A stretch of DNA of 64,000 nucleotides from Bryoerythrophyllum caledonicum (Eukaryota; Streptophyta; Bryopsida; Pottiales; Pottiaceae), in contig OZ020515.1 of assembly GCA_963971425.1 (NCBI GenBank), positions 5,596,291-5,660,290 of the forward strand, in the 5' to 3' direction. Shown in pieces: positions 1,136-35,545 of the stretch (position 1 is its first letter; each line of letters starts with the position of its first letter). The translations under genes and the position numbers were made by a program. Under the pieces are notes generated by a model. That model had not been told where the DNA came from. It saw only the letters and a list, made by a program, of their open reading frames with translations, and did no database searches.

Positions 1136-1391
1136 AAGATTGAAGAGAAGTTTCAGTGTGACATCAATTCAACTTCAACAATCACATGTCTAGAATGACT
1201 TCAAGGCATTGATATCAAGAGATTTTTCCTCTATTCCAAATCAAATAAGCAAAATCAGCTCTAATCATCTTTTGGTATCTATTGGTATTATTAGTTCAAA
1301 GAGAAAAAAAAGGCGGCTCAAAATTTTGGAACTACCCTTCTTCACTTTCAAAGGCAACTGAGACTAGTTCTATATTAAGTTTAGAGACTAC

Positions 1392-1594
1392 TGCCTTGGT
1401 GTAGTGGTTTGGATCATGCCACACCGGTGAGGTGGTTGTGAGTTCAAGTCCTATTGCCGGCGTGGTGCCTACCACCATAGTCCACCCAATTATGGTTGGG
1501 AGTCTCAAGACCTTGTTGTATGGGCACCCACAAAGCCCTCGGGAGAGATGACATGTTGGTTGTCTCTAAGGCAATTAGTGTAGGGAAGCACTTA
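1392..1594 (+). mobile_element. tRNA-derived SINE, 5' half (split by the 14.7-kb element)
   Basis: The head looks like a tRNA with an internal Pol III promoter: box A TGGTGTAGTGG at 1397-1407 and box B GTTCAAGTCC at 1442-1451. The body from about 1476 matches the second SINE copy at 37748 almost base for base. The target duplication TTAGAGACTAC lies immediately upstream (1381-1391) and again after the tail of the 3' half (16447-16457). The sequence breaks off at CTTA (1591-1594), where the large element begins, and resumes at 16298. Total SINE length without the insert is about 350 bp. Confidence 0.92.
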
Positions 1595-1632
1595 AACACG
1601 CAATTAAGCAATTATGCATTTAGCCAAGTGCA
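1595..1632 (+). repeat. Left terminal inverted repeat of the 14.7-kb element
   Basis: The first 24 bases are the exact reverse complement of 16274-16297. After a short gap, GCCA and AGTGCAC also match the right end. Confidence 0.92.
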
Positions 1633-2192
1633 CTGGTTGTTGGTAGAAAGCCGCAAGTTATTTGCTCACAACTTTTTAAAAAATCAAAATTTGGCAAAAG
1701 TTTAGTATGTTTTTTGTCAAATTTTTTTGGTGTTTGTCTTCTCATACATTGGCATCTTCATGTTCATATCAGTAATATATTTTTTACATTCGCTACCTTT
1801 TTTTAGAAAATATATGATTTCTACTCTAATTTGCAAATCCTGCTACAAAATTATGGTCATGTGCCCAAAGAGATTATAAATGTGTTATGAGTTATTATAG
1901 GATTTTAGAGTATTGCACTACAAATACAATGTGTAAGAGATACAAAAATATATATGCAAATTCCTAAGACAGTGTAAAGTACCTCACTGTATTTTATAAT
2001 GCAAAAACATACATAATCAAGCAATTCCACACTATTGCTGAGGAATTCTAAAATCAAACATATCATATGGACCACCCAATATATAAATATATACCACCAA
2101 CCGAACGATAGACACATCTCAAACTGCATTATATTAATGTACTTGCCACCTAAACTGCGTGCATGCTCTACTATAGTATATAGCTCCACGGC
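1633..2192. other. Subterminal non-coding DNA of the large element
   Basis: AT-rich, with no credible coding frame and no recognised repeat. It lies between the left TIR and the 3' end of the minus-strand gene, so it probably holds that gene's 3' UTR and polyadenylation signals. Confidence 0.4.
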
Positions 2193-2408
2193 TCACAGCT
2201 CATCATCTGGCGGAACGACTCTCTCCACGTGTCCAATGGCGCTACCTACCATAGCGGACAATTCATGATCCTGCACTGGACGATCTCCCACATCTTCGAT
2301 GCCAATGGACGCACACTCAATATATCGATAATTGCCAGGAACACCCTCCCGCGTATGCCTTATTCTATTATCATTATAGAAAAAACCATCCTCTCTATTG
2401 AAGGACAT
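2193..2408 (-). CDS. Possible C-terminal piece of the large element's minus-strand gene
   Basis: A 71-codon frame ending in an acidic tail (VVPPDDEL). It lies just downstream of the MITE insertion and outside the main body of the minus-strand gene. Its own frame is closed shortly upstream of the ATG, so it may be a last exon, or the frame may have been displaced by the MITE. No domain recognised. Confidence 0.3.
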   Translation of the reverse strand: MSFNREDGFFYNDNRIRHTREGVPGNYRYIECASIGIEDVGDRPVQDHELSAMVGSAIGHVERVVPPDDEL

Positions 2409-2504
2409 CTCTCGCTCTGATGAGAAGGCCGCTGAAATGTAATGATGTCCTCGGATACGCTAGATCTTGGAATGGAAGGCAAACCTGGTCCGGTATCACT
2501 CTCA

Positions 2505-2857
2505 CACTAGTACAAAATAGGGAAAAAAAAACCACACTCGGTTTGGAGTTGCAGTTCGTTTGACCTCAATGTTGGAACAGTCAGCACTGTTCCTATATCG
2601 GGCTGTCCCGGGTTTTTTGGCCATAACTCCCTCAATTTTGGGAGTTTTTGGACGTGTAATATACTGTTGGAAGCACCTTAAAAACACGCTTTCAACGGAA
2701 TATTACAAGTTTAATAACTCCCAAAAATGAGGGAGTTATGGCCAAAAAACCCGGGATAGCCCGATATAGGAACAGTGCTGCCTGTTCCGACATCGTGGTC
2801 AAACGAACCGCAACTCCAGATCGAGTGCGGTTTTTTTTTCCCTGTTTTGTACTAGTG
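2505..2857. mobile_element. CACTA-type fold-back MITE (353 bp)
   Basis: The element begins CACTAGTACAAAA and ends with its reverse complement. It is flanked by a 3-bp target duplication, TCA (2502-2504 and 2858-2860), as in the CACTA (En/Spm) superfamily. The two halves are almost fully complementary over more than 150 bp each, so the whole element is one long hairpin; the centre lies near 2670-2695. It carries no gene. It sits in the 3' part of the minus-strand gene of the large element and is therefore younger than that element. Confidence 0.9.
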
Positions 2858-5800
2858 TCAGTACCTCCGAACGTCTCTTGTGTCTCCGATACAGGCTCTG
2901 ATTGAGAAGGCATCGAAGGCTGTGGAATCCTCCTCTGCGCCGAAAAAATTCACATGAATCCAATCCTTCTTCGTCCATCTCCAGCCTAGGACCATCAAAT
3001 GTACGCCCCCCTCCTGCCCCTGCCGCCAAACTAACATCTACTACATATGTATCTTGCATCCTCTGTATAAGTGTTGCAGACGTCTCCCCTAAAGTATCTT
3101 CCACCGTCCGCTGCGTTGATGGAATCCTCTCTCTTGGAGGAGACTGGTTCACTCCATCCTCATCGGTGTCTGAACCACTACGAGATGAGAAAGCTTCAGT
3201 GGTACCTGAACGTGGCAATCTCTCATGTAAACCACCTCCATCCTCATTGTTGTCTTCAGCGCTCACTCCACCAACCGCCTCTTCGGTCTCAGGTACGATG
3301 TTGCAACCAATACTTGTTCCTCCTGTCCTGACCAACAATTGTCCTTGGAAATCGTCGGACAACCCATTGTACAGGAATGAAACTCTGTCTGTACAATCGT
3401 CAATGATGAAAATCTCAGATCCCTAGAAATCTCCTTCAAGGATTGTGGGAATGGCCGTAGATATGTTACAAGCCACTAAACCTCAACCACGGGGCAAGTA
3501 TGAGCCCACTAGTCTTGCCAGCTCTGATGGAGATCTCTCAAGTGAATCAACTTCAGAGGATTGGCGTGCCTCCCTTCAGTGATCCAAGAAAACAAGTGGA
3601 AGTGGAACGTCTCCTGAAACATATTTCGGGCCAGGAGATGTACCCACAGGGTTCTGCATACAAATCACAACATCGCCAATCGGTTATACTACTTGCTCCA
3701 GACGCCCATTCTCTGTAAAATCGAGAGCATGGGGATTAACCGAGTTCGGATCAAATGCCCAACATCCACGTTGCATAGTACATCCCTCTAGAAGCTTCAC
3801 CTTCGTGAAAAACTCTTCGTTGGCATACACGGCCGTTGGTAACAAGAAGATGACGTTCCATCGTTCAATATTTACCATCTATAATGCCAGCTGTGCAAAA
3901 GCTGCTGATTACTAGGCGTCTCCCCAATGACCATCTCCATGCCTCCCACCGCCACGTTGACAATCAATCACCCACGAACATGGTTTCTCCAACTCTATGT
4001 AGTCGGTGCGGAATAACCCTCTTCTACACCAAACCGGAAGAAGATTCTCTGTGTCGCTCTGGCCTCGCCTCTTGACTTCCATCTGCCAGGCCTAATTAGC
4101 AGTAGCCTGTCCTCCCACATCCACGGACAGTCCAATATATTCACGCCCCCCTGCTGCAATGTCACCATAATGAAACCTGATGGAAGGGGGGATGAGGTAG
4201 CCTATGTCTTCCAGTTTAGACACCTTTCCCCGCACATGAGCACTCCAAGCCTTTTTCGTGGTAGCATTCAAAAGCTTCCTAAAGGAATCAAGTTGTTTGT
4301 TACTCCTTGGAAAATACTTCCATACACGGATACGAAAGAACTCCTCCATGGAATTCGGTGTACTTTCCTTGTTCTCCACCATCAACCAACGGATGGAATT
4401 CATTACAACTTCTCATCTCGTATATCGGTCAACCACACCAGCAATCGTACGAGGATGTGGATTCTTGTCTTTTACACCGTCAAAGTAATATGCTTGACGA
4501 GGTCTTACTCCATCTTCCTTCACCGGCTTTGCTGCTGCAGACTTTGCCACCTGAAGATAATATGGATTCGGAACCCTACCTAATGGCCTCAACCAATTCT
4601 GGGTCATCTCCTTTGTTGTTGGTCGTACATCCACATTTGGATCCAACTCTTTCTTCCTCGCCATGTCCTTCTACTTGTCCTCTTCCTCCTTGCTGTAGAA
4701 GAGAATGTTGGCTTCGTAGTCCTTGCATACTTGAATGATAGCTTCAAAGCAATCATTGCTCGGATTCCATGCATGATTGGTCAGATCCTCTATGTTTTTC
4801 GCCAACCTCTTCACCGTGACAACTCCATCCCCCTTGGGCAACTTATGCACTGCACTTGCCGCACCCACCAAAGCAACAACCTTGCGTGCATTGTCCGCAC
4901 GTAGTGTGCTATCAGGCCTCCCGTATGGATCCCAAATTTTACGGATCTTCCTCAAATCCTCCTCCATGGTAGAATATGACTGTCTCTGGAACTCCGCCAC
5001 GTTGATCCGCGCAGACTTCTCAATGTAGAACTGGCGATCATCATACACGACAAAGAGACCTCCCGCCGCTCGAACGTGTCCAGGTACTCATTTAAAGGCA
5101 TAGTACCATCTCTCCACTGCTGCTGTGCAAGCTTACAAGCTGTTACCATGTGTTGTCCATCCACCGGTTCCTAAATGATATGATCTTGAAGCCAAGAATA
5201 TTGGGATCCCATGGCACTCTGTGCAGAAGCACTGCCGTGTGCAATGAACATGCGCTCAAACTCTCGTGCGGTTCCTACCAATGGAAATGGCAGTTCCTCC
5301 TTTTCAACGACACCATCATCGGTAGTAGTATGCTCGATGTATCTGATCGGTCGAAGTACCAATCTACTTACCCAAGTCGCGGATTTTGGGTCTCGTAAGC
5401 GGTTGAATACTTCTGTGACCCTCTTCTGTGATAAAACCCAATGGTTCATTTCCGGATTCTCCACAGAGACAATGCGGTCTATGTGTGCCTTAAATACAAA
5501 ATTCCCCCACACTGATCCTTTTATAATCTCCTCCGTTGTAGGCACTGGTGCTTTTAAATACATTGAAGTAGGAACATCGTGTAGTATCTCCGCATTGTCT
5601 TCAAAATCCTCTAGTATACTATCTGGAAGGTTGTGAAAATCTTCTACCTCCGGCGCCATGGCTGACAAATCAGCTAAATCTCCCGGTGTAGATGTAGGGG
5701 CCTTACGATGACCATCAGACGTCCTAAGTCCCGACCTAGGAACCCTGCCACCCGATCTTGCACTTCTTCCAATCAACCTCCTCCTGCTTGGATCCAAACT

Positions 5801-6478
5801 TGATGGGCCTTCTTTTGAACCAAAAGCTCCATCACTGTCCATACACCGTGGCCTCTTCGTAGGATGTCCACTCGTTAATGGAGGATTCGGTAATGTCTGT
5901 ACCTCAGAAGTTGTGGTGGGATGTTGGCCTCCACTTCCCCTCCCCCCCTCCAGTGGTCGCCAATCTAGTTGCAACGGCTCAGCAAGAATTCGATAAACTT
6001 CTGTTTCTTCTGGTTCCGCTGGTGGGGCTTGAGTTGTCGCACGTGATGGGTCCCTCTTCCGAAATGCCTCATATCTAATATGTTCCTCCATAATCTTGTT
6101 AGCTTTCAGCACCATCTCCGGTGATAACGCTAAATAGGCTAAGACGTTGTTGTATCTAGGAGTACGTACTGCAAGAGAGATGTTTAACCAAAACGTCTGC
6201 AATGATTTGAGGAATTTCACCCGACCTGGAGTTTGAAGAAGATTCAAAGGGACAGGTGCAAGAAGTAACTTCTTCGAAAGAGAAGTCTTCACCTCCGATT
6301 GACCTGGACCTACTGCGCAAGTAAGATATACCATATCATCACGTTGAAGAGTGATTGCTTGGATTTTGCCAAAACTCTTCCCCAACGCAGATGTACGCTT
6401 CCCCAGCTCAAAGGGATAATCCGTCACCCATAAGAAGGCGCTCGACTCATCCACTTTTGCGATCCACCAGCCGTGGCT
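2799..6478 (-). pseudogene. Large unknown protein of the 14.7-kb element (about 1200 codons, decayed)
   Basis: I do not recognise this protein. The first piece (6454-5171, 427 codons) starts near GESHGWWIAKVDESSAF, just after a possible splice acceptor at about 6480. It has a low-complexity Ser/Pro/Arg-rich middle and ends ...QDHII. After a TAG the frame continues, and a 1-base shift near 5050 moves it to a second frame. That frame runs through YDDRQFYIEKSARINVAEF, NHAWNPSNDCF, VRPTTKEMTQNWLRP and MEEFFRIRVWKYFPRS down to an acidic segment near 3000. At least a dozen in-frame stops interrupt it, but there is little indel damage. The 3' part is interrupted by a MITE. It is transcribed away from the DUF7869-type gene. 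A role as accessory transposition protein is only inferred from position. Confidence 0.65.
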
Positions 6479-6559
6479 CTCCTAGATTCTGTCAAATTTT
6501 GGTGGTGCTATAATGCAACACTCAAAAAACTTGTATATCATTACAAAACAATAGTCACT

Positions 6560-7260
6560 ATTAGTATGGAATAAGAATTTTTGAACCTCCACTCATTGCA
6601 CAATTTTTTTGAATATGCTACACCCCTTGTCTACCTCTAAAAACTTTTGCACTACACAAGATCTAAATCCAATACCATCATGTTAAGCATGTTGTTAGTT
6701 CTTTGGTGAATTAGCATATCAATCCAAGTCAATTATTTTCACACATTGTCACACATTTTTGGCCAAGGTACCAAAAAATCTTCTACCTTTCCACATAAAA
6801 CTTTGAGATCTTCATATGATTCACTTTTGATTTTTCCTACCGCATTATGTGATGTAAACCTTCTTATTGACCATTTGGATTCTCATTTAAAACAATATCA
6901 AGTTCACAAAAAAATATAACGTGAATTGAGAACTTTTGAACCTCCACTCATTGCACAGTTTTTTTGAATATGCTACACTCCTTTTCTACCTCTAAAAATT
7001 GGTGCATAAAGAATTAACAGTGTGCTTAACATTATGGTAATTAATTAAGACCTTTTATAGTGCAAAAATTAGACACCAATTGAAGTCAAAGTCTGCTGAT
7101 CCAGTAATCGCAAGAAAGAAAATGAGCCTTTTCTCTACTTCAAACATTATAATCCTTCAATCCGTGCGGTCAAGCTTTATGAAATTTTGTGAGTCTGTTA
7201 ATTAATTAGTCGTTATTGAGATCCTACGGTTTAAACTACAAAACAAACTTCATTTTTTCT
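6560..7260 (+). repeat. Internal dispersed repeat, copy 1
   Basis: A block containing 'gaatatgctacac', 'gtaaaccttcttattgacc' and 'caatccgtgcggtcaa'. The same block recurs at about 11690-12260 and partly at 9590-9741 in direct orientation. It also recurs at 29220-30460 in inverted orientation. Non-coding. Confidence 0.75.
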
Positions 7261-7516
7261 TCCTAACTAATTGCACAAAAACAACTATTTTCAACGATTT
7301 TTGGTTGAGATATTCTCAACATAATGTATGGACCAACGTACTTTGGGTATCAATTACAAGTGTATCACCTGCAGGGTATGACTTCTTGGGCACTACTACC
7401 CGGTTATCAACCAAGGTATCAATTTAGGATATCAATTTAGGGTTTTGGATTAGGGTTTTTGAATTGCGGGTATCAATAAAGGTTAGCAATCCTTTGCAAC
7501 GTTGGGTAGTCCTACA

Positions 7517-7540
7517 AGGGGTGTGCGCACACACACCCCT
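7517..7540. repeat. GGGGTGTG...CACACCCC palindrome, copy 1
   Basis: Inverted repeat with 9-bp arms (AGGGGTGTG / CACACCCCT). It is followed within 60 bp by a CTAGGGTTT telo-box. Related palindromes occur at 8505 and 10057, each also followed by TAGGGTTT-type motifs. Confidence 0.7.
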
Positions 7541-8029
7541 GGCAGTAGTTGCGAGGGAGGTTGTGAGTGTGAGAGCCTAGGGTTTGGTGGAGGGAGCCAA
7601 TGGAGGTGAGGGAGAGATGAGCTTGTGAGGGCGGGAAGAGAAGGGCTATGATGGCGGGAAGAGAGGAGTTTTGAGGGAAGGGAATGGACGGAATGTGAGA
7701 AAATGTGACGGTGGGAGGGAGTTGGGGCGGCGTCTATAGGTGAGAGGAGATTGTCAGGGGCGGCAGGCGTTCAGCAGGTCCTTATCCTATGATCCGAGGC
7801 GTTCAGTAGCTGTGCGCAATGAGCAGGGCACGATCCGACGCATCTATGCGCGATGGCATCCAGCAGCTCGCACCGATCCGAGTAGCTTGATGTCGCCGTG
7901 AAGCGCGATCGTGGGAGACAGAAAGGCGACGTGTGTGCTTGTGGAGACCAAACTTTGCGCGCTCTTCTCCGCCCCACTCCAATGAAGAACTGATGCACAG
8001 CCTCACTCAGATTCCTTCTTCGCAGCTTC

Positions 8030-8225
8030 GTAGTGATTTCTTCTTCGCACAGATCTCCCTCTTTGCAGAGATCTCCTTCTTCGCAGCTTGTCCTTAAGTC
8101 CGTAGAGATCTCCTTCTACGCAGCTTGTCCGTGTTTGCAGCGAGCTCCTTCTACGCATCTTGTGCGTGTCTGCAACGAGCTCTTTCTCCGTGTCTTCTCC
8201 TTGTTTGCAGAGATTCCTCCACGCG
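8030..8225 (+). repeat. Degenerate tandem repeat (GAGATCTCCTTCTTCGCAG-like)
   Basis: About five irregular copies of a roughly 30-46 bp unit built from 'gagatctccttct' and 'cgcagcttgtcc'. Frames crossing it in several readings look like repeat artefacts rather than genes. Confidence 0.55.
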
Positions 8226-8504
8226 CTAAAGTGCCATCACCTCTCCTTTCCTACGCAAGTCCGAACAGTTGCCGTGTACGGTGACAAGAGATTCCTTCTC
8301 CGCAGCTCTTGCTTGTCTGTAGAGATTCTTTCTTGGCTTAAATGCCCGCACTTCTCCTTTCTCGCGCTAGTCCAAACAACTATGAGGATTATCAGCTGCA
8401 GGATCCTTGTTCATCTCTCAGAATTATCACTTGTTGGCGCTTTCACAAATTGTCGTCTAAGATCTCGTTTGGATGTGCTAGATGGAAGAGCACCAGTAGG
8501 TGGG

Positions 8505-9741
8505 GGTGTGCGTGCGCACACCTCTAGTCTATGGAACTACATGGGATCGTCTAGGATCTCATGGGAACGCGGCAGCTAGGATTTTTTAGTTCAAGGTTTG
8601 GTTCCTAGAGGCGGCGGCTAGGGTATGGATCTGTGGCAGCTAGGATTGGGATTTGTGGGCTGATTTGTGTAGCTGCACCCACGAATTCAATGTCATACTA
8701 CGGACTACACTCACGGCTTCAGTTGTAGTGGTTTTGATGTCACTCAGTAGTTGATGTCTCCCATCATGTATAAACACTCAACTTCTTTTGAATTTGACAA
8801 TTTGAACATATTATTTGGTGTTTTTTTTGTGTGCTAAGTTGCCTATTTTTAATTCAGTAATGAAACAAAGTTAGGAAAGCTTACCTTGTTCACAAAAGTT
8901 CCCTCTAAGCACAAATTTCCTCCTCCAGTCTGTACACCACACGTAAAGCCCACAGAAAATAGTAAATGAAATAAAAATTGACATGGCTTCAACATGTTTG
9001 CGAGAGAGCTCACCTTTGAAAGTGGGAAGAGAAGAGACCTCCAAAGTCCGAAAGGAAACCTTATAAGCAAGTTCAAACCTTGTGCCTTAAGCTGAATTGT
9101 CCAATCTTAACTTTTGACTTTTGACTTTGTTTTTTCTACTATATAAACTTTTTACATATTTAATTAAATCTTTGGGCTAATAATATAATACAAATATACT
9201 TGATAGTTTTTATCACATGGTTTTAACAAATCACCATAAAAAATTTATGCACATTTTGCAGGTTTCTTGGAAGAATAGAAAAACTTGTCCAACAACAAGA
9301 ACGAAATGGTGATTTAATGTTGAACGCCATCAAACAATGATGTATGTACCCCTAACACCTGTAACGTACTTTGAGGTAATCAATTATTTCTATACATATT
9401 TCATATTGATTCTTGATCAATCTTCTATACTATTTTATGTAGAATAACCTTTATGTGGATGTACAATCCCTTTGTTTTTATAAGCGATTGTATCAAGTTC
9501 AAATGGTGTCAATATTAGTATGTAATATTATTTGTTTTCGTATCGATAAAATTCATTTGTTGTCTTTAGTGAAAATTTCTACATTAACCTAAGTCAATTC
9601 CACATACACATGATCACACATTGTTAGGCAAGGTACAAACTAAACTTCTTCCTTTCCACATAAAGCTTAGAGATCTTTATATTATTTTCATTTTATTTTC
9701 TCTATAAAAAGATGTGGTGTAAACCTTCTCATCGACCATTT
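8505..9741 (+). repeat. Central tandem duplication of the large element, unit 1
   Basis: Starts with the 18-bp palindrome GGTGTGCGTGCGCACACC (8505-8522) and telo-box-like GCGGCTAGGG motifs. It then carries 'gagagctcacct' and 'ttgaacgccatcaa' blocks and ends in 'gtaaaccttctcatcgacc' at the gap. The same order of blocks returns in unit 2. Confidence 0.75.
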
Positions 9742-9941
9742 NNNNNNNNNNNNNNNNNNNNNNNNNNNNNNNNNNNNNNNNNNNNNNNNNNNNNNNNNNN
9801 NNNNNNNNNNNNNNNNNNNNNNNNNNNNNNNNNNNNNNNNNNNNNNNNNNNNNNNNNNNNNNNNNNNNNNNNNNNNNNNNNNNNNNNNNNNNNNNNNNNN
9901 NNNNNNNNNNNNNNNNNNNNNNNNNNNNNNNNNNNNNNNNN
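9742..9941. other. Assembly gap (200 N)
   Basis: Exactly 200 N, the same as the second gap, so the real distance is unknown. It falls at the junction of the two duplicated units inside the large element, a place where an assembler would be expected to collapse or break. Confidence 0.95.
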
Positions 9942-10120
9942 CGCGCCAACGCCTGAGCGCCTGCGCCGCGCTCCGCCCGGAGGACAATTTTTTTGAATCG
10001 CAGCTCTCGCTGCGGTGGGGCGTTTTTGGATGGGTGCAGGAGCAGCAGCAGTTGGGGGTGTGCGCGCGCACACCTCCAGTCCACGGTTACTCCATGAGGT
10101 GTCGAATGAACTTCGTGGGA

Positions 10121-10248
10121 CCGGCGGCTACGGTTTGGCTGCGGTGGCTAGGGTTTAGTTGTGGCGGCTAGGGTTTAGTTGCGGCGGCTAGGTTTTGGAT
10201 GCGGCGGCTAGGGTTTGGGTGCCTGGATGTGGCGGCTAGGGTTTCAGG
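10121..10248 (+). repeat. 20-bp telo-box minisatellite
   Basis: Five units in exact 20-bp register (10121, 10141, 10161, 10181, 10201) of the form GCGGCGGCTAGGGTTTAGTT, plus a sixth after an 8-bp spacer. Each contains TAGGGTTT, the plant telomere/telo-box core, or a one-base variant. In plants telo-boxes are promoter elements and Polycomb-recruiting sites; that role here is inference. Confidence 0.8.
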
Positions 10249-11349
10249 TTGTGCGGTGATGTGCCGTACTGAGGATTTAGTGCCATATTATTTACTTCAC
10301 ATTGACTTCAATTTGTGTGGTGTTGGTGTAATTATTTCAGTTGAACGAAGGTTGAACTTACTAGTTGTTGACTGCTATATGTGTATTCATTCAACTTTGC
10401 AATTTTGTACATACTGAAGTTGGTGTCCTCATTTGTGTATTCAGATATTGGTATTCACCTAACTCTATCGTAACTCTTACTGAACTTCAATCATCATGCA
10501 CCTATCCCTGAGTTCCCTCTATGCAGAATTGAAACAAAGCTAGAAGCTTACCAAATTTGCTAAAATCTCCTCGATGTGCAAATTTCCTTCAATCTACACA
10601 GTACACAAAGTTGATAGAAATCAGTGAATGAAGAAAAAATGCACATGGCATTAAGGTTTCGAATGCAAGAGAGCTCACCTCAGAAACTGGGAAGAGAAAT
10701 GACCTCCAGATTTGCATAGAAACCTTATATCCATGTTGGAACCTTGTGCCTCAAGTTTACAAGTCAAAGTTTGACTTTTGAACTTTGGATCTTTTGCTTT
10801 GTTCCTCCTTATGTTTAAACTTTTAACATATTATATTAAAGTTTTGGGGTATATGTAATACGATGATACTTAAGAGGTTTTATCGCATAGTTTACCGTAT
10901 AAATTTCATGCATGTGGTGCAGGTAAAGTGGGAAGGGTTAAAAATCATGTTCCACAATGGCGGAATGGTGATTAAATGTTGAACGCCATCAAGCATCAGT
11001 GCGTATACCGCTAACACCTGCAACGTATCTTGAGGTAAAGATTTATTTTTATACAAGTTTAAGATTGATTGTTGATTGATCTTCTATACTATGTTGTTTG
11101 TAGAATAACCTTTACGTGGATGTACAATTTTTTTTTTTAGCGATTGTAATAAGTTCCAATGGTGTCGGTAATAGCAATTAGACAACATGGTTCATTTTCT
11201 TCCCTAAGTTCAGTGGATTCCCTTCGCTTCAGTTCACTTGGATTCAAAAAATCGCATCCCGCATGATCTAGATTCGTTATCATCATGTCAGAAATGATAT
11301 AAGTTCTATTTACACCAATGTTTAGGGATGCAAATTAAATGTAGCATAT

Positions 11350-11530
11350 TTAACCCCTAAAGGATCAAGTGTCCGAAATGGGCTTTTTGAAAGTTCGGTC
11401 AGGTTCCTGTAGTGTCAATTTCCACCATTTCTCTTTGAAATTTTTTCTATAGAAAGGCATTACAAAGACTTTAGTGGGAAAACAATTTTTACCTAAATTG
11501 GACATTTGATCAAAACAATTTAGGGTTTTG
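11350..11530. mobile_element. Degraded TTAA-type MITE
   Basis: The left end, TTAA then CCCCTAAAG (11350 on), matches the termini of the TTAA family at 17778, 31497 and 35542. The right end is degraded; only a stretch near 'ggacatttgatc' is complementary to the left subterminal 'gatcaagtgtcc'. Confidence 0.45.
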
Positions 11531-11689
11531 AATTTCAAATGGGGAGAGCAGGCAAGTCAAGCACGTCCAAAAACTTTTGCTACGACACTCTGTTGAATGT
11601 GAGATTTTCAATACTTGCAAGTAATATAATTTTCCTTGATGTTTTCAAAATAAGTTCTTGTTTCTAGCAAAAAATAGCATACCAACCCA

Positions 11690-12260
11690 AGTCAAACATT
11701 TCACACAGTGTCAGTCGGTGTTGGGCAAGGTACCAAAAAAACTTCTTGTTTTCCAATTAAAACCTAGATATCTTTTTATATTTCACTTTTTATTTTTTCC
11801 ACAACATTATGTGGTGTAAACCTTCTTATTGACGATTTGGATTAACAATCCAAAACATATTAAGTTCACAAAAAATTACACTGTGAATTAACAACTTCCA
11901 AACTTTCACTCCTTGCATAGTTGTTTTGAATATGCTACACCCATTCTCTACCTCTGAAAATTGGTGTACAAGGAACTAACATCATGCTTAACAAGATGGT
12001 TGTGGATTTAGACCTTGTGAAGTGCAAAATATTGATACCAAGTGAACTTAGTGAAGTCAAAATCTGCTGATCCACTGTATGCAGGGAATAAAATGAACCA
12101 TGTGCTTGACTTCAAACACTATAATTTTTCAATCCGTGCGGTCAAAGTTTATGAAATTTTTTGAGGTTGTTATTGAATAAGTCTTAATTGAGATCCTACG
12201 GTCAAAAGTAGAGATAAAAGTTTTTGTTTCCTTTTTTGTTCATTGCGCTGGAATCCAACA
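11690..12260 (+). repeat. Internal dispersed repeat, copy 3
   Basis: Same block as 6560-7260: 'gtaaaccttcttattgacg', 'gaatatgctacac', a Ser-free AT-rich middle and 'caatccgtgcggtcaa'. It ends about 270 bp before the start codon of the DUF7869-type gene. Confidence 0.75.
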
Positions 12261-12528
12261 ATTTTGAAGTGTTTTTGGTGTAACACTGTCATTGTATCTT
12301 CAGGGTTAAAGACTCCATGCAAGGAGTTCATGCTCTACAAATTATTAATTTTTTTATTTCAAAGTTGTTTTTCCAAAAGGTCCAATATCATCATCATATT
12401 TTAAACTGTAAATATGTGTTTAGAAACATATCTTTTTATCTGATGAATGGTGCTTTAAAGGTTAACAATTAGTACATGTATTTTGACTAATGTGCAGCCA
12501 TAATGTTCATATTTTTTGAATAGTGATA

Positions 12529-15500
12529 ATGGAGAGCCGCACGATTCAGACTCCTTCGATACGGCCACACATCCAAAGGGATAATATGCTTTCCAATAGC
12601 TCTGTATGGGCCCGATTAGTACGAGCAGCACGTGCAAGACAAATTCAACAAAGATCTGTTGGGATCATGACTTCTGAATTGGAAAGGGCAGTAGAATTGC
12701 TTTCTGAGAGAGGAGATGTGGTGGACTTAGCAACCAGGGAGCATGCATTGAAAAGTCGCATAGAGTTGAATGGGTCGAAGTTGTTCCCATTCGAGGTGGC
12801 GGTGCGTATTACTAGGGTAGATGATGCATTGCATTGGACCGGAGAGATTGTAGGAGAACGCCTTGGCATGTGTGTGGGCTTGATCATTTGTTGGCATCGA
12901 TCTTTGCTACGTGTAGTGGCTGTAGAACCTGATATCCCAAGTGTCCATGGTGACATTGGATCACAGATAGCGCCTACACAACTGATGGCCCCAGAATTTG
13001 ATTTTCGTGAGTTCATCAACACACCAGGATCCACCCAGAGGTCTCGATGCAGTAGTCAAGCTTCAAACGGCAGAGATGAAAATTCGCCGTTTTCTCAATC
13101 TACTCCCTCAAATATCCAAGATTTGCCCCATGTAGATGGATTTGCTTATATTAGACCAGCACGTCGTCCATATTCTATGCAAAATAGGAGAATGAGAGAT
13201 TCAAGGGAGCCATCATTGAGAGAAGCTGCACCATCGAAGGTAACGCTTAGAAGCGTGCAAATTGCAATGGCACGAGGAGGATGCAAACGCAATTGTTTGA
13301 GGGACGTTCCAGCAAGGTATCTATTGGACATGCGATACAATGCATGGGGTAGTGAGTTTTCAGTTCGAAGTACGTGGATGAGACAGATGTTGGTTTCTTT
13401 TTACACAAGGATGGAAGGAACTCGTCGAGACAAGTTTGTAACAAAGTTAGATGGGAAAGAAGTTTGCAATGCTTGCTATGCTCTTGGGGTTGGATAATCA
13501 TAGAGGCGCTTTAAGCAATTGAAGAAGGGCTGTCTAATATATGGAAGAGTGACATCGATTCACGGCAATATCCTTTCATATCCGAAAAGAGAGAGTACTA
13601 GAATGTTTGCAGCAGAGGCTTGCTTTAAATCGTTTGTCGATGAAGCTGGTTGTCCTCAACCTCATCGTTGTATTCGCCGTAAGAGTGACAACGAAGTGGT
13701 GCCTCTCATTCTCCTTCCTATGAATACAACCAAATTTGATGTATTCAATTACGTGAACGAGGAGGTGAAGAGAATTTGTAATGGGGAAACCATCTCTATG
13801 AGTTCGTTCCGGAGGATGTGGCGCATCAAGTATCCCCACGTTCAGGTACCTCCATTCTCGAGATTCTCAAAGTGTTATCATTGTTGGGAGTATAAATGTG
13901 CCATGGAGAGAACCACCAATACGGATGCAAGGATAAAGATAAAGGAGTTGTTTATGTTGCATCTGCGCAACCAGATGGAAGAACGTAGGCATTATTGGAT
14001 ATTCAAGAGGTCGTGTTATATTAGTCTTGAGTTGTACATGTGCATCATAGTGGATGGCATGGATCAAAACACGACCATGGTACCGAGGATGCGTCAGACT
14101 GTGAAGAACATTGAACATCGGTTTGTGAAGACCCATCTGTGTGGTGCTCTTGTACATGGGATTGGTTTATATTGTGACGTGTGGTTTGGAGCTCACCACA
14201 AACACGATAGCAACCAAGTCGTGAGTACATTGTTGTACGTGATTGGAGATGTGCTGCGGAGGAGGGGCTTTTTGCAACCAACATTGCGAATTTGGGCGGA
14301 CAACTGCACACGTGAGAACAAAAACATTTATATGTTTGCTCTATGTGCTACATTGGTGGGATTGGGGTTTTTTCAGGAGGTGGAACTATCTTTTCTTATA
14401 GCGGGCCATACACACGAAGATATTGATCAACATTTCAGCTGTATATCAAATACGTTGAAGAGGTCGGACGTGGACTCGTTGAAGGAAATGATTAGTCTTA
14501 TAGAACAAGGAACATCTCCTACCGAGGCATTCGTTAGCGCCCGGCTGCTAGAGAATCTATGGGATTGGAAATTGTTCATAACTCCTCACTTATTGACAGG
14601 TCACGATTCATTGGTGGGCATAACATTTCCGTACCACATGCGATTCTATATGGACAATCGAAAAGGGACTCGTGAGGTTCGAGTACAACATAAGCATTAT
14701 TGCAAGGATCCATGGGGACCGGAGGTAGGGACGAAAACTTTGAGGTCGTTGCCAAGTAGGGATGAGGGACCGTCGTTTGCGCAAGTGTTTGCAGCGGACG
14801 AACGGGAGTTGAAGGCGTTGGATAACTTCATTGTATATCAACAAAGGTGCATTCAAAGGTTGCAACATGAGGACAAGAATCGTGAGGCAAAAGTAGAGGC
14901 TGAAAGATTGAAATTCTGTTTAGCTCAATTTCCACACAAAGACCGTAGCAATGAACATCGTTCCTCACCATTTTAGCCTTCTGAGTTCTCCGACACCGGA
15001 CCTACAGGGAGTGCATCTTTGGATGTAATGGATGGTGCAAGTGAAGAAAATCGCGAGATAAATGTCGTAGAGCAGGTAGTGGCTATGCTTCCAAATGCCG
15101 AGATTTGAGGATACTTTGGTCCTCGTAGAGGAAGACCCTCTAATCAAGCAGTGCGTAGGGCACAACGAACAGAGCGCAATTATGTTGAGGAACGCGCCGA
15201 AGAAGGAGCAATGCATGAAGGTAATTACGACCCATTTCCACCATTTAATCCACAATCTGATATCCGTTGTGGACAATTTGTAGCCTTGAGTGTTGATCGA
15301 GCAGAGATAGAAGGCGGTATACCATTTTATGTAGGGAAAGTGATTGAAGAAGGAAAAAACCGATGGAGACTTAAGATAAAGGTTTGTTGGTATTGGCCCA
15401 TCATCCAAAGGGGGGTTGTTGATGGACATGGGTCTTCTGCACAACAGTATGCAAATTGCATGGATTCATTCTGGGAGCCATCTGGAGAGAGCCATAGTTG

Positions 15501-15720
15501 GGTAGACAAAGATGCATGTATTTTTTCATGGGTAGACACACCGGAAAGAACCATGTCCGGGGCCAGCGGGTGGAGAAAGCGCAATGTATTTGGAGCGCAG
15601 GTTGAAAGCAGGATTCGCATTCTTCAATCGGCAAAGGCTCACATACTACAATATATTGCAATGCAAACCGAGGCTATCGATGATGACCGTTTGCAAGCAG
15701 CCCTAAATTCTATGGAGTAG
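12529..15720 (+). pseudogene. DUF7869-type protein, candidate transposase of the 14.7-kb element
   Basis: One open frame of about 1060 codons with no frameshift but four in-frame stops (TAA 13495, TAG 13501, TAG 14974, TGA 15106). ATG 12529-12531 follows a possible splice acceptor (gaatag). Order of motifs: RGGCKRNCL; the GKEVCNACYALGVG segment spanning the first stops; the cysteine cluster CYHCWEYKC; IIVDGMDQN (first acidic centre); LRIWADNCTRENKN (second); and GHTHEDIDQHF (third). The last two are the hallmark of the family I know as DUF7869. The spacing suits an RNase H-like DDD/E nuclease, but that is inference. The C-terminal 150 codons (RCGQFVALSVDR to SWVDTPERTM) look like a small beta-barrel or Tudor/BAH-like module. 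Its place inside a TIR element supports a transposase role. Confidence 0.85.
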
Positions 15721-16249
15721 ATAGTGTGCCTTTTTGAGAGTATACTAGTTGTGTATGGTAATTGATATATAATAGTGTATGTGTAAGAGTAGTATATTCT
15801 AAGGGTGATGTAAGACGTTATGTCATTAATCCTTTAGAACAAAGCTGTGTTTACTATTGGTGCTAAGTCCAATTGTAGAAGCATCTATATTTAGTTTTTA
15901 CTATTGTATGCATTATATACTACGTAGAATATTTTTTAATCAATTGCCAACCCTTGCATAAAGTATGTTTTTAATGTGATTACGCCTCTTTGTATACTAC
16001 AATCTTTCAAATCTATCTTTGAATATTGTGAAACTATATAAAATACACATTTATCTAGTATTAACGAGGGGCCACCACAAATTAGTTGAAAATGCCAAAA
16101 AAATCGCTTCCAATATGAACAACCATGATTGTACGTAATATTGTTGCAAAAGCTCAATATTTTTTCTTTGGAAAACATTTTTTTTTTTTGTTTTTTTTTA
16201 ATTTTTTTTTAGTTTTACCACTTTTGTTCACAATGGCCGCCGTTGTACC

Positions 16250-16297
16250 CAAGTGCACTTTTAAGTGGCCAAGTGCATAATTGCTTAATTGCGTGTT
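16250..16297 (-). repeat. Right terminal inverted repeat of the 14.7-kb element
   Basis: The last 24 bases (16274-16297) are the exact reverse complement of 1595-1618. The inner part (GTGCACTT...GGCCA) matches the left end with a 4-bp gap. Confidence 0.92.
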
Positions 16298-16446
16298 CTT
16301 AGTGTAGAAAAGTGTTTACTCTCAAGAGGGGGGAATAGTTCCATTACACTAGCCTATGTCTCGTGGCCATATGCTTAGTAAAGAGAATGAACAAACACTA
16401 TATTCACGCCGGCCTCCTTCGGAGACCGGAGTTCTTCTTCTTCTGC
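16298..16446 (+). mobile_element. SINE, 3' half with (TTC)n tail
   Basis: Resumes the SINE exactly where it stops at 1594. It matches the copy at 37748-38023 through 'ctagcctatgtc', 'gtggccatatgcttagt' and 'attcacgccgg'. It ends in a short TTC run followed at once by the target duplication TTAGAGACTAC (16447-16457). The tail is related to the LINE 3' end at 46526-46770. Confidence 0.92.
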
Positions 16447-16766
16447 TTAGAGACTACCAAACTCTTCCAGGCCTAAGTAGGATTCTCATCCATTCACCAC
16501 CAAGCTATTCCATCAATATAGAAACAATGAATATGGATATTGAGAGAAAGGAAAGGGTAGTACAATGAATCTGAAGATTGATTTTCTATTGAAACCAAAA
16601 GTGATTATACAAAAAATAAAATGGAATGTAGAATAATCTCCTTACCTTCACTTGTGCACAACCTTTTTGAGGGCCTAACATCACTCGCCATGGCTGCCGT
16701 CACACTAACACTAGTGTTGCACTACCATCAATAAAAAAATTAGAATAAATTGACAATATCGACAAG

Positions 16767-26534: not shown

Positions 26535-27010
26535 CAGGGTTACCAATCCGACGTCCTTGGGGGTCTGAGAGCGTCCTAGGGCGTCCTAGGACGAAGACGT
26601 CCTGACGTCACATCGGACGCAGCGTCCGAGGGGGTAAAATGCATTTACCGAAGGTCGTAGTAAGTTTTCTGGACCGTCAGATTCGACGAAGTGCGACGCG
26701 GCGAGATCTCAGCCGTCGAAATGCATCGAGTCGTCCGACTGGACCCCGCCGTCGGAGAGATCGGACGGCACCTCGGCCGTCCGCGTGATCGGACGGCCGA
26801 TGGACAGATCGTACGGCCCCGATTTGATCGCGGGGGCGCACGACGGCCGTCCGATTAGGCCGACGGCTGTAAGGCCGTCCGATCGGGCGGCTGACCGATC
26901 AGGCGGACGGCCGCCCGATCGGACGACCGAACGGACGGCCGTGCGACTAGCCGATCGGTCGTCCGTCCGATCGGATGGCCGCGGTGGCGGTCGGCCTCAT
27001 GGCCGTCCGC
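26535..27010 (+). mobile_element. hAT-like left terminus with GC-rich subterminal repeats
   Basis: Starts CAGGGTTACCAATCC, similar to the inverted ends at 39016 and 60039 (CAGGGTTGTCATA on the minus strand). It is followed by about 450 bp dominated by CGTCC/GGACG and GGCCGTCCG words in both orientations. CAGGG termini and short subterminal repeats are typical of hAT elements. I could not find a matching 8-bp duplication. The partner end may be in the gap at 35906. Confidence 0.5.
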
Positions 27011-27014
27011 CACC

Positions 27015-27050
27015 CTATAAAAGGCCGTCCGCCAACCTCTCTCTCTCACT
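27015..27050 (+). promoter_or_regulatory. TATA box and CT-rich start region of the kinase-like gene
   Basis: CTATAAAAGG at 27015-27024, followed about 20 bp on by a CTCTCTCTC tract, a common plant core-promoter layout. It lies about 400 bp upstream of the ATG at 27423. Confidence 0.6.
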
Positions 27051-27179
27051 TTTTCCTTCCCCTCTCGAAAATTGAAATATATTTTTGAGTGGATGCGGAG
27101 TGGCTTTGGTTGGCATTTTTCCATCCATTGGCTGCTCATCTTTGGGAGGAAGAAAGTGATTCACATTTGGGGGGGAGTT

Positions 27180-27405
27180 TTTGCGGTTTTTTTTAAGTTT
27201 TTTAAAAACTTGTTCGTAAAATGCTTTTTTCATAGTTTTTTTATAGAACTTGTTCCAAACTAGTTTTTTTCTTGAACTTTTTTTTAAAACTTGTTGTAAG
27301 AAGTTTTTTCTCTTAGTTTTTTTTAGAACTTGTTCCCATCTAGTTTTTTTCTTGAAGTTTTTTTAAAAACTTCTTCTAAAAAGTTTTTTTTTAAAACTTC
27401 GAACG
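27180..27405 (+). repeat. T-rich degenerate tandem repeat in the leader
   Basis: Repeats of 'tagtttttttcttgaa', 'aaaacttgttc' and 'aagttttttt' in at least two units of roughly 90 bp. It lies in the presumed 5' leader of the kinase-like gene. Confidence 0.6.
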
Positions 27406-27422
27406 GCGGCGGGGTCAAGAAG

Positions 27423-28907
27423 ATGCCGAAGGACAAGAAGAAGCAGAAGGTTGCGGACTTCGGAGTGAAGCTTCATCCAATCCACGACGTTCCATCTGAG
27501 GCTTGCAAGAATTTCCTCATAGAACTGACCGTCAGATTCTATGAGGAAAATTCTATTCGATCATTGGAGAGCAAGTACGTCAGATATAGAGATGAAGGCC
27601 CCGAGAAGTTCCGGACGGACATGCGGCAGCACATGATGGACGCGCTTCAAGCCCCAATGTGGAATACGGAGACCCAGAAGCGCGGGTTTTAGAAGTTCTT
27701 GGATGCCAGAGTACACGATTCACTTTGGAATGCCAAGAACTTGTTGACCAAGTTTGGGAGGTTCAATCGTGCGGTAGATGAAGTTTTCAACGACGTGTTG
27801 TTGAAGGCGGATTTGTTCGTGGCCCAGATGAAGCCATTCGCCAAGAATCGAAACCAGCGTGGCTCCGTGGGATGGTGGAACTCGATAGAGGGGCACCAAG
27901 AAGACCTGCTGCGTAAAGCCCATCTCATTGCCATTCCGCCAACAGCCGCGGTTATACGAATGGACAATGCCAACAGGAGAGGTGGATACGCCACCATTCG
28001 CAAAGTCCGCATTGAGGGTGCTCCGGGCATTGAACCATTCTGGGAATTTGCCGCCAAGTTGTCCAACCAATCGGAGACACAGCCGGATTTGGCAAAAGTT
28101 GAGCATCAGAATGAGTCGATGGCGGTGAGGATTCCACATCCGGGTGTCATCCGTTTCGTGGCCATTCATCCGGACAAGTACGAAGGCTATGCGTATTGGT
28201 GGAATGGCGGGACAGTTCGAGAGATGTTGAACCGGAATATCGAGTTTGGTGACGATGTCATCACACATTTGAACTATGGGAGATTCCCCGATGATGAGAT
28301 TATTGGAGTTCAACAGTTGGTTCGTTTTCGCAAAAAACGGACCGAGCTTGCGTGGGCGTTGTTGCGCATCATGAACGAGGTCCACAAGAGCAACAATCTC
28401 CACAATGACTTGTCTCCCGACAATATCCTCCTCCACTTCCCTCCAGATGAATCGCGAGTGTATATTGGAGTATGCGATTGGGGCATGACCACGAAGGTTA
28501 ACGAACCAATGCAGTCTCTTTATACGTTCACAAAGCGTGAAGACATGGTCGAGACTCTGCGAAGGCGATGGTGGGTCGATCCGCGGGTTGCGTACTTGCA
28601 CAAACCAGATGCGGATGTGCAAATGATTCCGAAGTTATCAATGGCTTCGGAGGAGTTCGCTACGGCCCGAATAGCGCAACGAATCAACGGGCGGACAATG
28701 TCCATAGACTACGAGAATCTGCAATGGGAATCTCGGAGTTCCGTAGTATTCTCAAATCAAGAATTTGCGGATACATTTCATATGTACATGGAGAGAGTCT
28801 GCAACAAAAACCGAGAAAGCGCTGGAGGATTGTTTCATATCATTACACGCTTCAGCGACACATACAACTGGCCCACGCCTCATGAGCATTATCGGTCAAC
28901 GTATTAG
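27423..28907 (+). pseudogene. Protein kinase-like gene with one in-frame stop
   Basis: A 494-codon frame from ATG 27423 to TAG, broken only by TAG at 27690-27692 (residue 90). The N-terminal third is a helical, Lys-rich region without a known domain. From about residue 180 it reads as a protein kinase: glycine loop RRGGYATIRKV, hinge YWWNGGTVREML, catalytic loop HNDLSPDN (28401-28424, HxDxxxxN complete) and DWG instead of DFG near 28476. The catalytic Asp and Asn are kept, so activity is possible if the stop is bypassed or is an assembly error. A possible start downstream of the stop would lose only the N-terminal part. It lies about 900 bp inside a hAT-like terminus and faces a converging gene at 35500. 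It may be element cargo or a host gene copy. Confidence 0.75.
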
Positions 28908-29219
28908 TAATACATAGGTTTTACATTATTCCTTTCGGCATTATTAGACTATACTAGATAGCATGCACATTTTGAAGTGACTATAGCAATAGTCTTAGAT
29001 TAATATGTATTACATGCCTTTATAATTTGGGCACAAGAAGTAAAAAAACCTTATTTCATATAGCCGTGCAAAGAGCGACATTTTTTGAATTTTATATGGT
29101 TTAGGTTGTGGCATAGTTCCAATTTTTTAACTTATCAATGTGTTCTATTTCAAAATTATTGTATTTCAGAATTTTTGTTCAAATTACCTCAAAATATCCT
29201 AATCCAACCTTATAATGAG
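28908..29219. other. 3' flank of the kinase-like gene
   Basis: AT-rich; likely holds the gene's 3' UTR. No other signal seen. Confidence 0.4.
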
Positions 29220-30460
29220 ATTTCCCTACACACCAATTTTTAGAGGTAGAAAAGAACTGTAGCATATTCAAATCAAGTGCGCAAATACTGGAGTTTAAAA
29301 ATTGCCATTCCATGTTTTATTTTTTAGTAAACTGAATAAGATTTCAAATGATAATCCAAACCGAGGTTTAGGAAGGTTTTCATGTGTTCACTACATGTTG
29401 TTGAAAAAGCAAAATGTGTAAAATATGATGATCTCTAGGTTTTATGTAGAGAAGACGTATATCAAATTTTACAAGTTTGGGTTCGAACTTTTCGGATAGA
29501 TCATAGTGCCCATGGCACAAAATCATACATAACCTCAACCATTTTATGTTTCTTGAATACAATTTAGCATTTATAGGAATTACCCCCATTTGAAACGCCT
29601 CCTCATGCCCGACTCCCTACTCATACAACATGTCTCCTATATCCCCAAAAATATCGTGGCAGTTTTGATCCGGAAACACTTCAAAGTTGTTGGATTCTAG
29701 TGCAATGACCATAGAAGGAAACCAAAAGTTTGATTTCTAGTTGTGACCGTTGGAACTCAATTAAGACTTATTAAAAAATATGTTTACAAAATTTCAGAAA
29801 CTTTGACCGCACAGATTGAAAGATTATAGTGTGTGAAGTGAACCAAATGGTTTAGGGTCTTCACTGCGTTTAGTGGATCCGCAGACTTTGACTTTACCTG
29901 GGGTCAAAATTTTGAACTAGGCAAGGTCTAAATCCACTACACTAAACACTGAATATAGTGTAGAGGGATTATTGATGTAGATCACTCACACTAATTTCCA
30001 TCAAAGCATGTGCATGCCAAGTTCTGATTGGGTATTTGTTCTCAAGCAAGTGTGTGTCAGTCAACAATTGCATGAAAATTTTCAATTAGTGTAGGAAATT
30101 TCAAATAGTCTAGTCTACACTATATTCACGGAACGGTGTACCTGAAACATGATGGTAGTTCCTTAGACAACAATTTCTTGAGGTAGAGGACAGGTGTAGC
30201 GTATTCAAAACAACCATGGAAGTAGTGGAGGTTCAAACTTTGCCAATTCAAACTTCTTTTTCTTGTGAACTTCATGTGTTTTGAATTACTAATCCGAATG
30301 GTCAATAAGAAGGTTTACACCACATATTAATGTAGAGAAAATAAAATGTAAGAAATACAAAGATATGTAGGTTTTATGTGAAAATTCATAAGATCTTTTG
30401 GTACCTCGCCCGACAATGAGTGACAATGTGTGAAAATGTTTGACTTGGGTTGGTATGCTA
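29220..30460 (-). repeat. Inverted copies of the 14.7-kb element's internal repeat
   Basis: Reverse complement of the block at 6560-7260 and 11690-12260. Key phrases are 'gaggtagaaaagaactgtagcatattc' (in part), 'tttgaccgcacagattgaaag' (in part) and 'gtcaataagaaggtttacacc' (in part), at about 29250, 29805 and 30300. An insert at about 29937-30140, bounded by TACACTAAAC / CTACACTATATTC motifs, splits it. This shows a second, rearranged relative of the large element nearby. Confidence 0.7.
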
Positions 30461-31064
30461 TTTTAAAAAATTTCAATAAAGAGAAGACTTGTTTTTTCAA
30501 GGGAACGGTGAAATACATCGTTTCTCATAAGGTTTTCCATGACATTGTCATGTACATTCTTCTAAATATTTACACCTGAATTAGATGCATAGAAAAGTTA
30601 AAAGTTTGATTCAAACTTTGCATGTTTAGGGTTCATGCACGCTTTGACGACGTCCCCTTCCATCCAATTGTATTCTTTCCGTGTCCATCATCATATTATT
30701 GTTTCAAATGAGATTTCAAACGAGACACCTTACATGTCTTGTAAATGAATATCGCCATATATAACAAATTTGAAAACACAACCAATACTAACACACAAAA
30801 AACATGCATGAGATCGAATGTGATGAACATATTCTCTAGCCATAATCTACATCCAAAGTTTAGTCCCTAAAATGTTATTTTTAAGTACACTCCAAAATGT
30901 CAAATTTTCAAAACTTTTGTAACAATTTTTTTGCTTACATACCAGATGAAAACGCACCCAAAAAGCCCAAATCCGAAGTCGGAATTGAAAAAAAATAAAT
31001 TTTTTGGAAGTTATTAAGTCGCTGTTATGTTAATTCTGCCAAAAAAATAGTTTCATCCACTATG

Positions 31065-31262
31065 GATGAAATTCTATGCGGCGGAAGAAAAATCCCGCAG
31101 CGGATGAAAAACAGCGCAACGAATTAAAAACAAGCTGCGGATGGAAAATAAAATTGCGGATGAAAAATCACCATGTGGAGGAAAATCAGAGTTCGGTTTA
31201 AATGTTTGCAGCGGATGAAAACATTCGCAGTGGATGAAAAGTAGACTGCAGATGAAATTTTG
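31065..31262 (+). repeat. GCGGATGAAAA degenerate repeat array
   Basis: About nine irregular units of 18-25 bp around GCAGCGGATGAAAA. A diverged set in the opposite orientation (TTTTCATCTGC, TTTTTCGTCC) lies at about 31910-32060, so both may be subterminal arrays of one element with a nested MITE between them. Confidence 0.6.
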
Positions 31263-31500
31263 AAAACCTCATTATACTATTAAACTACATTACAATGGTT
31301 GGACTAATGCGTTTCAAGCAAACGCCAACCGCTAATTTGCATCTATAGAAGTTTGGTAGTGGTTCGCGCTTGTTTTGCAACGCATTATAACAACCACTTT
31401 AATGAATTCTCTATATTGTTTAATATTAAGAAAAACATTCATTTCAAAATTACTTTTAAAAAACAGGAAGAGTAGAGAAGGAGCGGGTTACAAACATTAA

Positions 31501-31852
31501 CCCTTAAACGACATTTCATGGCCTGGGCGGGCAGCTCGAAATTGGATCACGGCATCTTCTATACTTGGACATCAATGAATAGTGCACTTTTGAACTTGGG
31601 CATCATGAATAAACCAATCAATGATGAGTTTGCAACCTCCTAAAGGTTATCAACCTACCTACCGCAATCCTTTCAAAGCACAAATCACTCATACAAATTG
31701 TGATTTGAATTGTAAAATTTCACTTTGTGAATGCATCAAAAGAAGGTGATTAGAATGATATCAAAAAATATGTGAAAAGTTGAGTACAGGAAGAGCTACA
31801 GAGAAGATTCTGTAGAAACCAAGCCCCTCGGGCTGGCTCTGACGTTTAAGGG
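31501..31852. mobile_element. TTAA-type MITE (352 bp)
   Basis: Inverted ends CCCTTAAACG flanked by TTAA on both sides (31497-31500 and 31853-31856). No gene inside. Same class as 17782-18622 and 35546-35760, different interior. Confidence 0.8.
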
Positions 31853-31904
31853 TTAACTTGTTAAGTGTTTCTTAATAGTGTTCGTGATGATTCTTAACAC
31901 TTTG

Positions 31905-32065
31905 CCATAGTCATTCGCAGACGATTTTCATTAAAGTGTGCCTGTGCGCACATACCTGTGCGCCTGGCCCATGTAGCTTCTGAAGACTGTTTTTCGTCCA
32001 GAGATTGTTTTCTCAACCAAGGACTGCTTTTCCATCCTCTGACTATTTTCATCTGCAGGGGCGGA
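31905..32065 (-). repeat. Inverted set of the GATGAAAA array
   Basis: Units read on the minus strand as GCAGATGAAAA, GGATGGAAAA and GGACGAAAAA. See the array at 31065. Confidence 0.5.
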
Positions 32066-32679
32066 AATTGTAATTTGGCCACATTATATTAATAGTGGAT
32101 ATCGGCTCTCTAAGTAGGGTTATATTTAGCAGAAAAAATAAATTGTATAGGAGGTTTTCCAAAAACCACATTCTTCTGAGTGTTTATGAAGCATTTTAAG
32201 GAAGTTCAATGCCTAACTCCGTAGGTAGATTGCTACGACATATTTACTCGGACATCTACAATCATAACAATTTAAAGCAATGAAGTATATGCAATCATTA
32301 ATACAAACATGCATACATTAAATTGTAGAGGCATTCAAATATGAATAGCAAAAATGCTTATAGGAAGATTTTGTTGTATTCATTGATATTGTATAATGTA
32401 TTTGGTATACCATTTCGTGTACTCTATAGAGTAATTTCCACACACTAAAATATCCTTAGAGCATAACTTATGCCCATACACAAAACATGACAAATCATCA
32501 CAACAGAGTACAACAACTAACCCGCACCCATATTCACTGACTGTATCAATGCACTTTATCTACTAAACATCCAAATAACAAACCCTATCATGTACAATAG
32601 CCATCTCGACCAAACCATTTTAATGTTGTTGATCCACATGTTACAAAACTGAACACATATAACAATCCTTCACAAAGTT

Positions 32680-33905: not shown

Positions 33906-34267
33906 CTAGGTCAGAAATACTCAAGGAACTTTAGAGGTACAGGTTGAAAAAAAAAGATTATTTAACATGTAATGATATGAAATACTCTTTAACTTTTATG
34001 AGGTGAATGAAAAGTTGGAATGTATAAAAATTTCTCATTCCACACATCCACTTATACTAAAAAATTATCAATAAAATTCATTTGGAAACATGTAGCATGC
34101 ATTGTACATTCATCATCCACATTGACATGGCCGCAACGTAGAAATATTTAATAAACATCGATTAGAAGATCTTAAAAAATGACCTTCTAAATGTACAAAA
34201 TAGTCAACATTGTTCTCACATGAAGACATTATCCACATGGATTACATTACACAAAGACCATGTATGA
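33906..34267. other. Spacer between LINE fragment and converging gene
   Basis: AT-rich, no reading frame of note. Probably includes the 3' UTR of the minus-strand gene ending at 34268. Confidence 0.35.
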
Positions 34268-35500: not shown

Positions 35501-35545
35501 CTTCTCTAACTAGAACAAACAATTAAATGAATGAATGGGAATTAA

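Follow-up and report, generated by a model that had tools for sequence, protein, structure and literature searches.

Results

Nested insertions at the locus

The window analyzed here is a 64,000-nucleotide stretch of contig OZ020515.1 from Bryoerythrophyllum caledonicum. Near its left end, two large genes, TP2 (2193..6541, minus strand) and TP1 (12529..15720, plus strand), lie within a transposon that is nested in a SINE; neither gene is intact in this copy. An 11-bp target duplication of the SINE, TTAGAGACTAC, was read directly on the left at 1381..1391 and on the right at 16447..16457. The two parts of the SINE, both on the plus strand, were delimited by direct reading together with alignment to an unsplit SINE: the 5' part occupies 1392..1594, and the 3' part, with a TTC-rich tail, 16302..16446. 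By eye, the SINE head contains motifs like the A and B boxes of the tRNA type. Scored against the genome, the head matched at 41 or more places, its own included, at 92-100%.

The transposon splits the SINE at CTTA, its target duplication, which was read directly at 1591..1594 (left) and 16298..16301 (right). Between these lies a decayed copy of 14,703 bp (1595..16297), delimited by its ends and duplications. The left TIR (1595..1626, plus strand) and the right TIR (16266..16297, minus strand) are 32 bp long and 94% alike, with the outermost 24 bp perfect (1595-1618 and 16274-16297). At up to 3 mismatches, this 24-mer occurs in the window at these two places only (100 shuffles gave a mean of 0). 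With the insert and one CTTA removed, the SINE aligns with 37746-38014 (85% over 270 bp), in which the junction runs through without interruption and is present once. Thus, the bracketing duplication, the split at CTTA by an element whose 24-bp inverted ends are perfect, and the insert-free junction of an unsplit SINE elsewhere in the window were all found as the first-pass annotation had described them. The size of 14.7 kb that it had given holds as the distance between the borders, but 200 bp of this are a run of N between the TP2 and TP1 genes (9742..9941), and a CACTA-like foldback MITE sits in the left gene, TP2 (2505..2857; arms found, flanking TCA seen by eye). Self-comparison revealed an internal direct repeat, the copies of which (6709..7230 and 11672..12202, both plus strand) are 79% alike.

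The nesting in the SINE gives a clean insertion order. The SINE came first, with its 11-bp duplication, the transposon followed with 4 bp, and the MITE then entered TP2 with TCA; both genes have decayed. Because this copy is decayed, it could be mobile only with proteins from other copies.

Other repeated sequences are present in the window. A second repeated unit, at 26535-35872, holds two ORFs, one kinase-like (27699-28907) and one of 410 aa that has no known domain (34268-35500). It has stretches in common with the central repeats of the transposon, and another transposon copy (C8, 3.9 Mb) contains most of it at about 94%. A 746-aa ORF at 46770-49802 matches both RNase H (2.7e-11) and PCIF1_WW (2e-8), an unusual combination, and part of this ORF is repeated at 32447-33796 (77%).

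The transposon family across the genome

The 437-Mb assembly (894 contigs) was searched with the ends of the element. A 27-bp end sequence was present in 567 + 563 = 1,130 exact copies, while the reversed control gave 0, so that the ends are far from confined to this locus. With the left-end 300 bp, 40 matches were scored at 95-100% from 797 first-look candidates, and with the right-end 300 bp, 40 were scored at 93-100% from 1,321; both sets include the window's own match.

The right TIR was found at up to 4 mismatches in all 20 TP1-bearing loci, the window included, with changed tips in three. At the right border of these loci, the 60 bp inside are 93% alike on average and the 60 bp outside 28%, and none of the 190 outside pairs is more than 60% alike. 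Likeness therefore ends at the right TIR, in agreement with the view that the borders of the element are secure.

To the window copy we added 10 long copies and 10 others, picked because the position of their far end could be predicted from a TP1 or TP2 gene, giving 21 copies for a survey of both ends. Both ends were obtained for 18. Fifteen of these have exact 4-bp duplications (CTTA, TGGT, AGAA, AATG, TTGT, TTAT, CAAC, AACA, CATA, CTAT, AACA, GTAG, AACT, TTTC and TTGA), one has an exact 5-bp duplication (CAGAT), and two are imperfect. In 3 of the 10 long copies, no second TIR was found within 18 kb at up to 4 mismatches. Copies with both ends are 12.2-16.0 kb long, and the ends start with AACACG. 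Of the features by which cut-and-paste elements are recognized, shared TIRs, a target duplication of near-constant length and the empty site were all found in this family.

Among the first 100 TIR places listed, 27 facing pairs are less than 30 kb apart, spanning 2.2-9.9 kb (12 pairs), 11.3-14.4 kb (12 pairs) and 19.1-25.1 kb (3 pairs). The short pairs have the look of non-autonomous derivatives with internal deletions. TP1 frames that are 99.84% identical in DNA were found in two copies that lie on different chromosomes and differ in their flanks and duplications (AACA and TGGT). Such near-identical frames in different flanks with different duplications argue for recent movement of the family.

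A single 200-N run is also present in 8 of the 10 long copies fetched, mostly between TP1 and TP2, as if the GC-rich centre of the transposon resists assembly or had been held back from it. The window itself has a second 200-N run, at 35906-36105.

The combination of a DUF7869-type gene with a second large gene, which had been noted for this copy, is borne out, and many copies have both. TP1 and TP2 are divergent: comparing 88 listed TP1 matches with 91 listed TP2 matches, we found TP2 head-to-head at a distance of 4.8-10.3 kb for at least 44 of the 88, a lower bound, where about 0.4 such pairs would be expected by chance under uniform placement. No other TP1-TP2 arrangement within 20 kb was seen among the listed matches, and the other 44 TP1 matches have no partner among the 91 TP2 matches listed. 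For the idea that every autonomous copy carries both genes, these pairs give a bound only.

TP1, a DUF7869 protein and presumed transposase

In the window copy, the TP1 frame has four in-frame stops ahead of the final one. Its match to PF25273 (DUF7869) lies at 14119..14667 on the plus strand, with an E-value of 1.4e-45 on the read-through frame and 5.8e-46 on the open part. Relatives of TP1 have open frames of about 1,066-1,077 aa, and in 46 of the 88 listed matches the frame is no shorter than 1066 aa and the matched part is free of stops. The in-frame TAA, TAG and TGA in the window raised the idea of a stop-reassigned genetic code, which was rejected given that these 46 relatives are open under the standard code; a glutamine-rich 746-aa ORF of the window without an in-frame stop also counters it.

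Motif comparison pointed to three presumed catalytic residues, all encoded on the plus strand: a first D in DGMDQ (codon 14053..14055), a second D in ADNC..EN (14299..14301) and an E in GHTHEDID (14416..14418). The presumed catalytic spacing is D-81-D-38-E. Judged by eye, the way in which hydrophobic strands and helices follow one another around D, D and E would fit an RNase H-like fold. AlphaFold predictions from single sequences gave no reliable fold (pLDDT 40.5 for TP1 and 30.9 for TP2), and a comparison of TP1 with solved structures gave no significant match.

A search of prokaryote contigs returned three loci for TP1. One of them, L080, was discarded as a chance hit because its match spans just 15 residues; the other two are DUF7869-like. 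The two remote relatives (L078 and L079), which have 21-25% identity to TP1, both keep DGM.Q, D..EN and GHTHEDID; in each, by hand count, 37 residues separate the second D from the E. One of the two carries D..EN and GHTHEDID past an in-frame stop, which is perhaps an intron. Both relatives are on short contigs of two metagenome-assembled genomes labelled Bacteroidetes, and these contigs are probably stray eukaryotic DNA in bacterial bins. Viral contigs gave no confirmed relative of TP1, and neither did tblastn of phages and plasmids.

For dN/dS, we used 19 of the 22 subjects that match all 1063 codons, from 31 subjects searched; L033 and L029, which are the same places as two other rows, and L048 were left out. 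After removal of pairs with dS of 0.01 or less (3 of 153 for TP1), pooled dN/dS was 0.20 for TP1 (150 pairs, 18 copies) and 0.056 for its DUF7869 core (149 pairs), in both cases with the window copy left out. The dN/dS figures reported here are raised because broken copies are among the rows.

DUF7869 is not confined to this family, since at least 150 matches of several frame lengths were scored in the genome. Further frame-length classes (about 1074, 1082 and 1087 aa), many of them open, were seen genome-wide and are probably other transposon families. The Pfam entry for PF25273 describes a domain of unknown function and nothing more, and a literature search for DUF7869, PF25273 or GHTHEDID found no paper.

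TP2, a second large protein under selection

The window's TP2 gene is a remnant. It has 12 stops in the two stretches that were aligned with an intact relative, is frameshifted near 5051-5054 and contains the MITE. Frames of 1317-1371 aa are present in 29 of 91 listed relatives. TP2 matches no known family: searches against Pfam, NCBIfam and PHROGs gave no match, nothing significant was found in the PDB, viral contigs held no confirmed relative, and tblastn of phages found none. Of 10 subjects in which TP2 matched, 7 entered the dN/dS analysis, and the pooled value was 0.35 (15 pairs, 6 copies, window copy left out). By region, the value was 0.12 for residues 470-640, 0.51 for 850-1110 (10 pairs) and 0.70 for the tail.

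By eye, TP2 has a DGQH motif with a strand-like and then a helix-like stretch behind it, which resembles ParB-like domains, and this region adjoins and partly falls within the most constrained part of TP2. A later stretch, also by eye, recalls the motif order of beta-class methyltransferases; it is weakly constrained, at 0.51. The ParB_N profile had 0 matches in the genome. N6_N4_Mtase had 84, nearly all short, and all are more than 20 kb from every one of the 91 listed TP2 places. We then compared TP2 with eight methyltransferases (E. coli YhdJ and seven phage proteins) by hhalign and HMMER; the five of these that were scanned all match N6_N4_Mtase and show no ParB fusion. The hhalign probability for the methyltransferase alignment was 0.0 with TP2 and 0.1 with reversed TP2, a test that is weak because TP2 is represented by one effective sequence (Neff about 1). 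Unfiltered HMMER found no domain between the methyltransferases and TP2, with the best shuffle at 1.6 bits. With the tests at control level, an assignment of TP2 as an N4/N6 DNA methyltransferase was not borne out, and a very diverged domain could be missed by them. We treat the likeness of TP2 to ParB-methyltransferase proteins as a lead only.

Discussion

The ends and borders of this family, its duplications, the empty-site logic, the copy number, the two-gene architecture, selection on both proteins and the conserved D-D-E pattern are all shown here. From the sequences, we propose, with a probability of about 0.8, that the element belongs to a family of class II cut-and-paste DNA transposons in which the DUF7869 protein TP1 is the DDE transposase and TP2 an accessory protein. 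TP1 would be an RNase H-like enzyme that binds the shared ends and catalyzes transposition, excising the element and joining it to a staggered cut, and this joining would leave a 4-bp duplication without a fixed sequence. Transcription of TP2 would run in the direction opposite to that of TP1, from a central region common to both. As to function, TP2 may be an accessory protein maintained by selection, most likely one that binds DNA. The window copy would have entered an already integrated SINE, acquired the MITE and decayed.

We compared the family with described superfamilies. CACTA (En/Spm) and KDZ elements are likewise long TIR elements, some with accessory genes, but CACTA duplications are 2-3 bp and those of KDZ about 8 bp, whereas the duplication here is 4 bp, and the ends here are AACACG rather than CACTA. 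Two-gene PIF/Harbinger elements pair a transposase with a second gene, as seen here, but have a 3-bp duplication (TNA or ANT in Ectocarpus, according to PMC12477816) in place of the 4 bp of this family. They differ further in that TP2 matches no known DNA-binding domain.

Sola1 elements have TIRs and 4-bp target duplications, and a 4-bp duplication is what we find here. For Sola2, PMC3627910 also gives a 4-bp target duplication. The Ectocarpus element Sola1-1_Ec32, as described in PMC12477816, is 21.5 kb long; its second gene lies on the other strand from the transposase gene, and for it a protein of 1104 aa with ParB and methyltransferase domains is reported. By that description, the present element is similar in being long and in having a large second gene opposite the transposase strand. 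It differs in its length of 12.2-16.0 kb and in TP2, which has no detectable ParB or methyltransferase domain where the Ectocarpus protein reportedly has both. Given this resemblance, the first-pass view that the two-gene combination lies outside every described superfamily is not established.

It is accordingly conceivable, at a little under even odds, that the element is a member of the Sola1 superfamily, with DUF7869 as the Sola1 transposase and TP2 as a greatly diverged accessory of the Sola1-1_Ec32 type. The duplication length, the opposite-strand second gene of a long element (PMC12477816), the listing of Sola1 for Physcomitrella in PMC9033089, and the DGQH/ParB-like stretch with its later methyltransferase-like motif order would all fit. 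Against this, TP2 matches nothing in Pfam, NCBIfam or PHROGs, the hhalign and unfiltered HMM tests with the eight methyltransferases were no better than controls, ParB_N has no match in the genome and none of the 84 N6_N4_Mtase matches lies near a listed TP2 place, and constraint is weak on the stretch that recalls a methyltransferase (0.51, 10 pairs). Membership in Sola1 is compatible with the cut-and-paste explanation and would make the element one of a known kind. More doubtful, to judge from the same sequences, is the proposal of an undescribed superfamily, with 4-bp duplications, AACACG ends and D-81-D-38-E, that has DUF7869 proteins as its transposases and in which TP2 represents a new class of transposon protein working with the transposase.

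The roles of the two proteins might also be reversed, with TP2 as the transposase and the DUF7869 protein as accessory or cargo, given that the genes are linked and both are under purifying selection. We consider this very improbable: constraint is far stronger on TP1 (0.056 in the core, compared with 0.35 for TP2), a D-D-E pattern kept in remote relatives was found for TP1 only, no remote TP2 relative having been found for comparison, and DUF7869 forms a wider family in this genome. That the nested structure is an artefact of assembly or scaffolding around the N gap, a gap shared by the window element and most of the long copies fetched, is scarcely credible, since the gap lies clear of both ends and their duplications, which are read without a break, and other copies share the ends, the gene order and the spacing.

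With TP1 as the likely transposase and TP2 as its putative accessory, DUF7869, so far a domain of unknown function, gains a concrete and testable role as a transposase core. A single genome here defines the ends, the target duplication, open-frame copies and the empty site together. Furthermore, the presence beside the presumed transposase of a large protein that is free of known domains and under selection makes accessory roles in long eukaryotic transposons testable.
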